A stretch of 64,000 bases of DNA from Candidatus Eisenbacteria bacterium (GTDB lineage Bacteria; Eisenbacteria; RBG-16-71-46), in NCBI GenBank assembly GCA_020847735.1, contig JADLBL010000021.1:62001-126000 (forward strand), given 5' to 3'. The translations under genes and the position numbers were made by a program. The notes below the pieces were generated by a model that saw nothing but the letters and a program-made list of their open reading frames with translations, made no database searches and was not told the origin of the DNA. This document shows, piece after piece, positions 6,905 to 11,607 of this stretch (positions are counted from its first letter, which is position 1; every line of letters starts with the position of its first letter).

Positions 6905-7198
6905 ATGACCCAGACCCGCACGTTGAACCGCCTGCGCCGGCAGCACTGGCGCTCGCTCGAGAAGCTCTGCCGCGAGGCCTACCAGGACGGCATCGAAGCC
7001 GGGCTCGCCCGCGCCCACGGACAGCGCCGGCGCGGGCGGACGATCCGCGCCGACGCGACGGTCGAGGGCCTCGTCCGGCTCATCGAGCGCCACTTCGGGC
7101 TCGACCGCTACGGTTTCGAGGTTCGAATCGTGCATGCCGCCTCGGGCCGCCGGGTTCCCGGCGCGAGTCTCCTGCGGCCGTTCCGCATCGAGGACTGA
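6905..7198 (+). CDS. Small basic hypothetical protein
   Basis: 97 residues from ATG 6905, preceded by a strong ribosome site (GGAGGAGG). It is Arg-rich in the first half (RLRRQHWRSLEKLCREAYQ, GQRRRGRT) and more globular in the second (IERHFGLDRYGFEVRIVHA). No signal peptide or membrane segment. A possible -10 hexamer, TACAGT at 6860, lies just upstream. I do not recognise a family; an RNA- or DNA-associated role is possible from the charge but unsupported. Confidence 0.6.
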   Translation: MTQTRTLNRLRRQHWRSLEKLCREAYQDGIEAGLARAHGQRRRGRTIRADATVEGLVRLIERHFGLDRYGFEVRIVHAASGRRVPGASLLRPFRIED

Positions 7199-7413: not shown

Positions 7414-8841
7414 ATGAAGTCGCTCGCCGTTCGCCTGACCGCGCTGCTCGTCGCCCTCGTCACGATGGCGATGCTGGCCGGTGCGGCCTCCAGGTCCGCG
7501 AAGATCCTCGAGCCCGACAAGCTGGTCATCCTGTCCACGACCGACGTCAAGGGCAAGACCAGTCCCTGCGGCTGACACACGCCCAAAGGGGGCCTCGCCC
7601 GGCGGGCGAGTTTCGTTGACAGCATCGCGGTCCAGTACGGCCAGTATCTGCTCGTGGACAACGGCTTCTTCTTCCCCGAGGCCGAGGACTGGGAGCAGGA
7701 CGCCTGGTTCCTCATGGACGCCATGAAGCTCCTGCACACCGACGCCGTGAACGTGAGCGAGAAGGAGCTTCGCTACGGCCGCAGCTTCCTGCTCGCGAAC
7801 TGGAAGCGGTCGAAGCTGCCGCTGGTGTCCGCGAACCTGTGGGACAAGACCACCGGCAGGACGCTGGTGGACCCGTACGTGATCGTGAAGAAGGGCACGG
7901 TGACGGTCGGCATCTTCGGCGTGACCAGCGACAAGGTGGACCTCGGCATGTCGCGCGATTCGCTGAAGGTTTCCGACCCGACCGAGGCCGCGAAGCGCAC
8001 CGTCGCGGAGCTGCGCAAGAAGGGCGCGACGGTCGTGGTGCTGCTCTCGCAGCTGGGCAAGGTCGAGAGCGAGGATCTCGTCGCCACCGTGGACGGCATT
8101 GACGCGGTCATCGTCGGGCGCAACATCGCCGTGATGCCCAAGGGTCGGCTCATCAAGAACACCATCGCCTGCTACGGCGGCGAGCAGGGCCAGTACATCG
8201 GCCGGACGATCCTCACGCTCGACGCGCAGAAGAAGATGGTCAATGGCGACTGCGAGACCTTCCTGCTCGGTCCCGAAGTGGGCGAGAAGCCCGAGATCCT
8301 CGCGCTCGTCAAGAGCTTCGAGGACGCGTTCAACGACTTCCTGCGCAAGAAGGAGAAGGAAAAGCAGGTGGCGACCGACGCGGCCCGGCTCGAGGGCGGC
8401 GCGGAGACGGCGGTGGACCACTACGTCGGCGACCAGGTCTGCCAGCGCTGCCACCAGGCCGAGTACGACCAGTGGAAGACGACGCTGCACGCGAAGGCCT
8501 GGCAGACGCTCGTGGACGTGAAGAAGGACGCGGACACCGAATGCATCAAGTGCCACGTCGTCGGCTACCAGCAACCCGGCGGCTTCCGGACCGGCGACGA
8601 CGCGGCGAAGCTCGGCAACGTCCAGTGCGAGGTCTGCCACGGCATGGGCACGCAGCACGAGGCCTATCCCGCGCAGGCGCGAAAGATCACCGAGGCGACG
8701 TGCAAGCAGTGCCACACCACGGACAACAGCCCGACGTTCGACTTCGCGACCTACGAGCCGCACATCCTGCACCGCGTGCCGGCGGACCTGCCCAAGCTGC
8801 CGGACAATCCGAACAAGGCGAAGATGATGCAGGGCCACTGA
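7414..8841 (+). CDS. Periplasmic tetraheme cytochrome c with UshA-like N-domain; predicted selenoprotein (in-frame TGA = Sec54)
   Basis: 475 residues if TGA 7573-7575 is read as selenocysteine. ATG 7414 opens a signal peptide (MKSLAVRLTALLVALVTMAM). Next comes a metallophosphatase/5'-nucleotidase-like domain: ILSTTDVKGKTSPCG, then Sec54, then HTPKGGLARR, with NANLWD- and VGIFGVTS-type strands after it. Related cytochrome-linked domains carry PCGC followed by GGLARR, so the TGA sits exactly at the second Cys (CGC to CGU). The C-terminal third has four heme sites: CQRCH (343), CIKCH (377), CEVCH (405) and CKQCH (430). The frame is clean on both sides of the TGA. Stopping there would leave a 53-residue stub, and a restart at GTG 7654 would give a heme protein without an export signal. 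A SECIS-like hairpin follows. The alternative is a nonsense mutation or base error. It probably transfers electrons in the periplasm; the substrate is unknown. Confidence 0.8.
7573..7610 (+). promoter_or_regulatory. In-frame UGA and bacterial SECIS-like hairpin
   Basis: Directly after the UGA (7573-7575) the mRNA can form a perfect 7-bp stem, 7594-7600 with 7604-7610, capped by loop GGC (7601-7603). The loop begins 25 bases after the UGA. Bacterial selenocysteine insertion elements lie within the coding region just downstream of the UGA, with a G-containing apical loop roughly 16-37 bases away, so position and loop G fit. The three-base loop is at the small end; opening the top C-G pair would give a five-base loop. 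Confidence 0.6.
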
Positions 8842-9043: not shown

Positions 9044-10435
9044 GTGAGCAAGGTCCTCGACGGCGTCCAGTACTTCGAGTCCATCCTCGACACGGTCGGC
9101 GGCACGCCGCTGGTGCGGATCCGCGAAGTCGCGAAGGGCCTGCCCTGCCCGGTGCTCGGCAAGGTCGAGTTCTTCAACCCGGGCGGGAGCGTCAAGGATC
9201 GCATCGGCCTCGCCATGGTCGAGGACATGGAACGCCGCGGGCGGCTGAAGGCCGGCGGCACGATCGTCGAGTGCACCTCGGGCAACACCGGGCTGGGGCT
9301 CGCGATGGTCGCGGCCGTGAAGGGCTACCGGGCCGCGTTCTGCATGCCCGACAAGGTCTCCAGCGAGAAGGTGAATCTGCTCAAGGCCTTCGGCGCCGAG
9401 GTCTTCCTGAGCCCGACGGCGGTCGAGCCGTCGCACCCGGATTCGTACTACTCGGTCGCGCGGCGCATCGCCACCGAACGCCCGGGCGCGGTGCTGATGG
9501 ACCAGTACAACAACCCCGCCAACCCGGCTGCGCACTACGCCACGACCGGCCCCGAGTTGTGGAAGCAGACGGCCGGCCGGATCACCCATTTCGTCGCGGG
9601 CATGGGAACGGGCGGGACCATCAGCGGCACCGGCCGCTACCTCAAGGACCAGAACCCGAAGGTTCAGGTGATCGGCGCCGACCCGGTCGGCTCGATCCTC
9701 AAGCACTACAAGGAGACGGGCCAGATGAGCGAGGCCCGCACCTACAAGATCGAAGGCGTCGGCGAGGACTTCATTCCGGGGGCCCTCGATTTTTCGGTCG
9801 TGGACCGCGCCGTGCAATGCGACGACTGGAACGGGCTCAACACCGCGCGCCGCCTCGCCCGGGAGGACGCCATCTTCGTCGGCGGCTCCGCGGGCATGGC
9901 GACCTGGGTCGCGCTCGAAGTCGCGAAGGCGTGCGGGCCGAACGACCTCGTGGTCGTGCTCCTGCCGGACACGGGCGAGCGCTACCTGACGAAGGTGCAC
10001 AACGACGAGTGGATGCGCGACAACCACCTGCTCGACCTGTCGGCGACGCGCGTGGCCGGGCTGGTCTCGGGCAAGGCCTCGCGGGTGCGCCAGCTGATCT
10101 CGGTGGAATCGGGCGAGCCGCTGCGCCGGGCGCTGACGCTGATCGAGCAGCACGACGTGTCCCAGCTGCCGGTGATGCGCGGCGACGAGGTGGTCGGAAC
10201 GCTGGAGGAGGGCGAAGTGCTGCGCACCGCGCTCGCCAATCCCGGCCGGCTCGAGAAGCAGGTGGACGAGTTCATGGCCCCGCCGCTGCCGATCGTCGGC
10301 GGGGACGAGCCGGCCGAGGCGGTGACGAAGCTGCTCGCCTCGCGCAACGCCGCGGTGCTCGTGCGCCACGGCGGGACCGTGTCGGGCATCCTGACGCGCT
10401 TCGACATGCTGCAGTTCATCGCGGGAGGCGAGTGA
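9044..10435 (+). CDS. Cystathionine beta-synthase (PLP enzyme with C-terminal CBS domains)
   Basis: 463 residues from GTG 9044, which has GAGG upstream; an in-frame GTG-type extension to 8987 lacks conserved sequence. It condenses homocysteine and serine to cystathionine in the cytoplasm. The PLP Lys51 is in NPGGSVKDRIG, the substrate loop is TSGNTG, and the phosphate-binding loop is GMGTGGTISGTG. Residues about 335-463 carry a pair of CBS domains (DVSQLPVMRGDEVVGTLEEG, GGTVSGILTRFDML), which separate it from plain cysteine synthase. The stop overlaps the next start by one base (TGATG), giving an operon with the gamma-lyase. CBS domains suggest adenosyl-ligand regulation, an inference from family knowledge. 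Confidence 0.9.
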   Translation: MSKVLDGVQYFESILDTVGGTPLVRIREVAKGLPCPVLGKVEFFNPGGSVKDRIGLAMVEDMERRGRLKAGGTIVECTSGNTGLGLAMVAAVKGYRAAFCMPDKVSSEKVNLLKAFGAEVFLSPTAVEPSHPDSYYSVARRIATERPGAVLMDQYNNPANPAAHYATTGPELWKQTAGRITHFVAGMGTGGTISGTGRYLKDQNPKVQVIGADPVGSILKHYKETGQMSEARTYKIEGVGEDFIPGALDFSVVDRAVQCDDWNGLNTARRLAREDAIFVGGSAGMATWVALEVAKACGPNDLVVVLLPDTGERYLTKVHNDEWMRDNHLLDLSATRVAGLVSGKASRVRQLISVESGEPLRRALTLIEQHDVSQLPVMRGDEVVGTLEEGEVLRTALANPGRLEKQVDEFMAPPLPIVGGDEPAEAVTKLLASRNAAVLVRHGGTVSGILTRFDMLQFIAGGE

Positions 10436-11607
10436 TGGCGGGCGAGACGCTCGGTCCGGACGCGGGATTCGCGACCCGTGCGGTTCACGCGGGGCAGGAG
10501 CCGGACCTGGCGACGGGCGCGGTGATGACGCCGATCTACCAGACCTCCACGTACGCGCAGGAGTCGCTCGGTCACCACAAGGGCTTCGAGTACGCGCGCA
10601 CGCACAACCTGACCCGCTCGGCGCTGGAGAAGAACCTCGCGGCGCTCGAAGGCGGGCGGCACGGCTTGAGCTTCGCCTCCGGCCTCGCGGCGACGAACGT
10701 CGTCATGCAGACGCTCTCCGCCGGCGACCACGTCGTCTGCGGAAACAACACCTACGGCGGAACCTTCCGGCTTTTCGACAAGGTCTGGAAGCGGCACGGA
10801 CTCGAGTTCTCGTTCGTGGACTGCACCGATCCGGAGCGGGTGGAAGCCGCGTTCACCCCGCGCACGAAGCTCGTCTGGACCGAGACGCCGACGAACCCGC
10901 TGATGCAACTCGCGGACATCCGCGAGATCTCGGCGCGGGCGAAGCGCCGCGGTATCCGCACGCTCGTGGACAACACCTTCATGACGCCGTACTTCCAGCG
11001 GCCGCTCGAGCTGGGGGCGGACGTCGTCCTGCACTCGGTGACCAAGTATCTGAACGGCCACAGCGACATGGTCGGTGGGGCGCTGATCACCTCCGACGAC
11101 GATCTGGCCGCGAGCCTGCGCTTCCTGCAAAACGCCGCCGGGGCGGTGCCGGGGCCGATGGACTGCTTCCTGTGCCTGCGCGGAACCAAGACGCTGGCGG
11201 TCCGCATGCGGCAGCACCAGGCCAACGCGCTCGAACTCGCGGCCCTGCTCGAGCAGCATCCGAAGGTCTCGCGCGTGTACTACCCGGGGCTCGCCTCGCA
11301 TCCCCAGCACGCGCTGGCCCGCTCCCAGGCGTCCGGATTCGGCGGCATGATCTCGATCGTTCCCGGCGACGGCTCGCACGCGGCGGGCGAGGCGGTCTTC
11401 AACCGCTTCCGGCTCTTCACGCGCGCCGAGAGCCTGGGCGGCGTCGAGAGCCTGGTTTGCCACCCGGCCTCGATGACTCATGCCTCGGTGCCGCGGGAAA
11501 CGCGCCTTGCGCTGGGCCTGGTGGACGGCCTGCTCAGGCTTTCGGTCGGCATCGAGGACGTCGCCGATCTGAAGGCCGATCTGGTGCATGCGCTGCAAAT
11601 ATTGTGA
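10435..11607 (+). CDS. Cystathionine gamma-lyase / gamma-synthase (Cys/Met metabolism PLP enzyme)
   Basis: 390 residues, normal length for the trans-sulfuration PLP family. PLP Lys204 lies in SVTKYLNGHSD; the family's ETPTNPL and VDNTFMTPYFQRPLELGADVV segments are present. Because it is translationally coupled to cystathionine beta-synthase, gamma-lyase activity (cystathionine to cysteine, reverse transsulfuration) is the more likely function, although gamma-synthases share the same fold and motifs. ATG 10435 overlaps the upstream stop by one base. Confidence 0.9.
   Translation: MAGETLGPDAGFATRAVHAGQEPDLATGAVMTPIYQTSTYAQESLGHHKGFEYARTHNLTRSALEKNLAALEGGRHGLSFASGLAATNVVMQTLSAGDHVVCGNNTYGGTFRLFDKVWKRHGLEFSFVDCTDPERVEAAFTPRTKLVWTETPTNPLMQLADIREISARAKRRGIRTLVDNTFMTPYFQRPLELGADVVLHSVTKYLNGHSDMVGGALITSDDDLAASLRFLQNAAGAVPGPMDCFLCLRGTKTLAVRMRQHQANALELAALLEQHPKVSRVYYPGLASHPQHALARSQASGFGGMISIVPGDGSHAAGEAVFNRFRLFTRAESLGGVESLVCHPASMTHASVPRETRLALGLVDGLLRLSVGIEDVADLKADLVHALQIL

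Follow-up and report, generated by a model that had tools for sequence, protein, structure and literature searches.

A predicted UshA-like PCGU selenoprotein with a tetraheme cytochrome module in an uncultured Eisenbacteria genome and its possible redox role

The window analysed here is a stretch of 64,000 nucleotides from the genome of an uncultured Candidatus Eisenbacteria bacterium. An ATG at 7414 opens a frame of 475 residues in which codon 54 (7573-7575) is an in-frame TGA, and the next stop codon is the TGA at 8839-8841. The features of this gene and its downstream neighbours, all on the + strand, are listed below.

7414..8841, + strand: predicted selenoprotein gene, UshA-like domain plus tetraheme cytochrome c, 475 aa with Sec54 (reading frame; NF041198 match)
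7414..7488, + strand: N-terminal signal peptide or hydrophobic helix, residues 1-25, 5' of the TGA (sequence; predicted helix 3-25)
7519..8283, + strand: 5'-nucleotidase/UshA N-terminal-type domain (metallophosphoesterase fold) with a degenerate metal site (profile, predicted structure)
7567..7569, + strand: Cys52 of the CGU motif, invariant (family alignment)
7573..7575, + strand: TGA predicted to be read as selenocysteine, Sec54 (Cys codon in 31/111 homologues)
7594..7610, + strand: putative bacterial SECIS hairpin, 7-bp stem 7594-7600/7604-7610, GGC apical loop 7601-7603 (folding and family covariation)
8440..8454, + strand: heme site 1, CQRCH, residues 343-347 (invariant in 54 sequences)
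8542..8556, + strand: heme site 2, CIKCH, residues 377-381 (invariant in 54 sequences)
8626..8640, + strand: heme site 3, CEVCH, residues 405-409 (invariant in 54 sequences)
8701..8715, + strand: heme site 4, CKQCH, residues 430-434 (invariant in 54 sequences)
9044..10435, + strand: cystathionine beta-synthase-type PLP enzyme with CBS domains, downstream, conserved neighbour in Eisenbacteria
10435..11607, + strand: cystathionine gamma-lyase/synthase-type PLP enzyme, downstream, conserved neighbour

A sequence-only reading of this locus had described a single TGA interrupting an otherwise clean 475-residue frame within the motif SPCG-[TGA]-HTPKGGLARR, with a signal peptide before the TGA and all hemes after it, in a protein joining a UshA-like domain to a tetraheme cytochrome. 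This description is accurate in each respect: the motif is present, no other stop occurs before 8839-8841, helix 3-25 lies upstream and the four CXXCH motifs downstream, and the two parts match NF041198 and PF13435. The part of the gene 3' of the TGA has been compared with that of a close relative (L048) at 72% identity, with 84, 68, and 166 differences at codon positions 1, 2, and 3, respectively. Since the differences fall mostly at third codon positions, the part downstream of the TGA is under selection at the protein level. The protein is expected to be exported to the periplasm and to carry hemes on its CXXCH sites.

The window protein scores 282.5 bits against the NCBIfam model NF041198 (UshA_like_PCGU, 'UshA-like (seleno)protein'), which has a curated cut-off of 275. 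The match consists of two stretches, UshA-like and cytochrome, the second of which (model ~344-519) covers the cytochrome part. As the model also spans this part, the fusion itself belongs to a known family. The PCG[U/C] motif of NF041198 is found with the TGA at codon 54, and it is followed, as in the UshA-like CxU family of Zhang and Gladyshev (COG0737), by GGLARR. This UshA-like CxU selenoprotein was recorded in the 2008 Global Ocean Sampling survey as 76 Sec and 92 Cys sequences (PMC2398784), and it appears in a 2022 review (PMC9312934) and a 2026 review (PMC13188914). The proposal in the sequence-only reading that the gene encodes a new selenoprotein is therefore not upheld; by its profile match, the window gene is a further member of the known UshA-like PCGU selenoprotein family and not a new family. 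Its claim of a new type of redox centre is likewise not supported, since multiheme cytochromes with Sec are already known: the 2026 selenoprotein list includes ExtKL (NF040886) and a tetrathionate reductase family octaheme cytochrome (PMC13188914), and a 2007 paper had pointed to an in-frame stop in Geobacter c-type cytochromes (PMC1914089).

Within NF041198, the window protein is distinguished by its origin in an uncultured Eisenbacteria genome and by a phosphoesterase site that is more degenerate than in many members (VDNGF, LSQ, GRN). It resembles ExtKL in being a multiheme c-type cytochrome with a predicted selenocysteine, but the architecture differs and, with a score of 8.8 bits where the cut-off is 250, there is no detectable family relation. 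The UshA-like selenoprotein family 2 (NF049981) has a related UshA-like domain with Sec, but its motif is CxxU instead of CxU (PMC13188914), and the window protein scores 29 against its cut-off of 140.

Homologues have been gathered from the phylum and from GTDB genomes with TGA read as open, giving 111 distinct genes from many phyla. The codon opposite the window TGA is TGA in 80 of them, TGC in 23, and TGT in eight, and no other codon occurs at this position. The sequence-only reading had proposed looking here for Cys, which is thus present in 31 of the 111 genes. In a tree of 103 of these genes, well-supported branches force at least four changes between Sec and Cys. Tandem Sec and Cys copies have been found in relatives of the same genus and family. 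At three loci (L134, L135, and L136, in the relatives G020, G026, and G022, respectively), the two forms lie side by side, and in G026 the Sec copy and the Cys copy are mutual nearest relatives, which suggests a recent duplication with Sec/Cys exchange.

Several other homologues deserve mention. The window's own genome also encodes a Cys-form tetraheme paralogue within a 1376-codon open frame (L133, G000:C26:59364-60605) and a Cys-form PCGC homologue without CXXCH (L132, G000:C27:40939-41706). A Sec-form PCGU homologue, L081 (4835-5845), also has no CXXCH. Because a few homologues such as L132 and L081 carry the Cys-Gly-Cys/Sec motif without hemes, the coupling to hemes is not universal. A Sec gene from a Thermoplasmata archaeon MAG (L092) looks bacterial and is separated by a very short branch from a deltaproteobacterial MAG gene (L085). 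Archaeal SECIS elements are mostly located in the 3' UTR, so that the L092 contig may be mis-binned.

The genome that contains the window is 3.66 Mb in size and 99.6% complete. It encodes a tRNA-Sec with the anticodon TCA (74 bits), whose gene (selC) adjoins that of SelD, together with SelB and a SelA match of 538 bits. All four genes that the sequence-only reading had named for a search, selA, selB, selC, and selD, are thus present. Each of the phylum's 26 high-quality genomes has a SelA.

A hairpin, CTCGCCC-GGC-GGGCGAG, starts 18 nt after the UGA inside the coding sequence, with 25 nt from the TGA to the loop and a folding energy of -12.5 kcal/mol. Bacterial SECIS elements have been delimited by a loop of 3-9 nt, a stem of 4-16 bp, a G in the first two loop positions, a distance of 16-37 nt from the UGA, and an MFE <= -7.5 kcal/mol (PMC13188914). 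The window hairpin, with its GGC loop, 7 bp, 25 nt, and -12.5 kcal/mol, lies within all of these limits. GGLARR is also conserved as protein, so the evidence for a SECIS element has been sought at synonymous (wobble) sites. Among 70 Sec genes, the wobble base of Leu61 pairs with that of Ala65 in 87%, a share that drops to 45% when partners are shuffled, and the pairs observed are C-G, G-C, U-G, G-U, and U-A. At the loop base, which is the wobble position of the first Arg codon, 68 of 70 Sec genes but two of nine Cys genes have a G (Fisher p = 4e-7). Such p-values overstate significance, as related sequences are not independent, but some members of the family have CTC...GCG where others have CTG...GCC, a direct compensatory exchange at synonymous sites.

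When the genes are compared with synonymous recodings drawn from their own codon usage, the 80 Sec genes fold better than expected (mean z -0.76, p = 4e-8), while the 30 Cys genes show no significant difference (mean z -0.12), and the contrast between Sec and Cys genes has p = 0.001. The hairpin of the window gene is only weakly better than its own recodings (z -0.52), and the case for a SECIS element is consequently carried by the family. Rfam gave no SECIS match near the window TGA; bacterial SECIS elements are diverse, and this result has not been counted against the hairpin. SECIS-directed insertion of Sec at codon 54 is well supported computationally. The proposal that the TGA is read as selenocysteine thus draws support from the Sec/Cys column, the hairpin, and the Sec machinery, and such decoding is very likely. 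The refuting conditions that the sequence-only reading had set for the Sec machinery and for the homologues both turned out in favour of Sec.

The AlphaFold model of the window protein (pLDDT 90.9, pTM 0.86) matches 5'-nucleotidases such as CD73 and UshA, as does the profile search. In UshA, we take the dinuclear metal ligands to be D41, H43, D84, N116, H217, H252, and Q254, and the catalytic residue to be H117. The site is not intact in the window protein, which keeps only the equivalent of D41 (D44); in the alignment, the equivalents of UshA H43, D84, N116, H117, H217, and H252 are K46, F85, E116, K117, Q213, and R236. Across 54 family sequences, there is no conservation at the positions of UshA H43, N116, H117, and Q254; a D stands at the D44 position in 30 of the 54, and about half of the family retains the residues at the positions of D84, H217, and H252. 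Cys52, Sec/Cys54, all heme Cys and His residues, His359, and His415 are invariant in the same set. The window protein shares the metallophosphoesterase fold of the SoxB thiosulfohydrolase, UshA, and CD73 but lacks most of the metal ligands and the C-terminal nucleotide-binding domain, and it has gained the CGU motif and the hemes.

The C-terminal part has the four CXXCH motifs and the PF13435 match of c554-like multiheme cytochromes. It resembles the Nitrosomonas cytochrome c554 (PDB 1bvb/1ft5), but here the c554-like module forms just one domain within a fusion. No genes for hydroxylamine oxidation were noticed near the window gene.

In at least 12 Eisenbacteria loci, the next genes encode the cystathionine beta-synthase and then, where the contig reaches, the gamma-lyase. 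This link comes from a re-test with the window's own neighbours, as shadow frames had cluttered the neighbourhood clusters across phyla, and it hints weakly at sulfur metabolism. A 97-aa ORF at 6905-7198 on the + strand, with no Pfam match, is conserved at 64-71% identity in five related Eisenbacteria loci, where it precedes the selenoprotein gene. An lptD-like gene also lies upstream in Eisenbacteria and Krumholzibacteria. In the latter, the order is lptD and an HU gene, the selenoprotein gene, and an unknown 280-aa protein, a neighbourhood that gave no functional lead. The neighbours differ in other phyla.

The TGA could also mark an ordinary Cys (PCGC) cytochrome gene that has acquired a nonsense mutation or a sequencing error, the codon being either a genuine stop or a TGC that was misread. 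A TGA is one base from TGC and Cys homologues do exist, but the same TGA recurs in 80 homologues from many phyla, a covarying hairpin accompanies the TGA and not the Cys codon, the Sec machinery is complete, and the part 3' of the TGA is under protein-level selection; this reading is very improbable. Insertion of another residue, by near-cognate readthrough or codon reassignment, would leave the frame just as it is, since the frame alone is silent on which residue is inserted. Against this, TGA is the terminal stop of the window gene (8839-8841) and of several homologues, the genome encodes a dedicated tRNA-Sec and a SelB, and the hairpin fits the constraints on bacterial SECIS elements. The alternation of TGA with Cys is the classical signature of Sec, and only Cys alternates with the TGA in this family. 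We give this reading as little credence as the preceding one. On the evidence of the homologues, the SECIS element, and the Sec machinery, we have rejected nonsense mutation, assembly error, and codon reassignment.

A different question is whether a selenoprotein of this kind could still act as a UshA-like phosphoesterase or nucleotidase, with a structural or metal-binding CGU motif and accessory hemes. The fold and the profile match to 5'-nucleotidases speak for this, as do the D at the D44 position in 30 of 54 sequences and the partial retention of the D84, H217, and H252 positions in the family. In the window protein, however, K, F, E, K, Q, and R stand at six UshA positions, which makes a normal dinuclear metal site impossible, and the tetraheme module replaces the nucleotide-binding C-terminal domain. 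A hydrolytic role is thus unlikely, though less so than a misread or reassigned TGA.

The reading that we hold with high confidence is that of a periplasmic UshA-like PCGU (NF041198) selenoprotein, in which UGA 54 would be decoded as Sec through the genome's own SelA, SelB, SelC, and SelD and a SECIS element, with a presumed redox role. The reading frame, the Sec/Cys column, the SECIS covariation, the Sec machinery, the family membership, and the loss of metal ligands are established computationally. In the proposed mechanism, SelA, SelB, SelC, and SelD would decode the codon-54 UGA with the hairpin 18 nt 3' as the signal. The N-terminal domain retains the 5'-nucleotidase fold although most metal and catalytic residues are gone, and the invariant Cys-Gly-Sec/Cys pair sits in the loop just past the strand that bears the phosphoesterase D-x-H metal motif. 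Cys52 and Sec54 may form a reversible selenenylsulfide, and the pair could exchange electrons between a substrate and the heme chain of the C-terminal, cytochrome c554-like tetraheme module. The hydrolytic site has been lost while the Cys-x-Sec pair and the hemes are strictly kept, which points to redox chemistry. On this basis, the chances are slightly in favour of the window protein being a periplasmic selenenylsulfide/thiol oxidoreductase, with a sulfur compound perhaps as the substrate class. A more specific and tentative idea, which we consider doubtful, is that Cys-Gly-Sec in a remodelled phosphoesterase pocket feeds electrons directly to the fused tetraheme chain, possibly acting on a sulfur compound; such chemistry would be undescribed for any enzyme.

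A seemingly broken gene in Eisenbacteria genomes is thus very probably a selenoprotein gene, and the Sec system is common in this uncultured phylum. The UshA-like PCGU family extends over many phyla and carries the tetraheme fusion almost without exception, which makes it a reasonable target for biochemistry.
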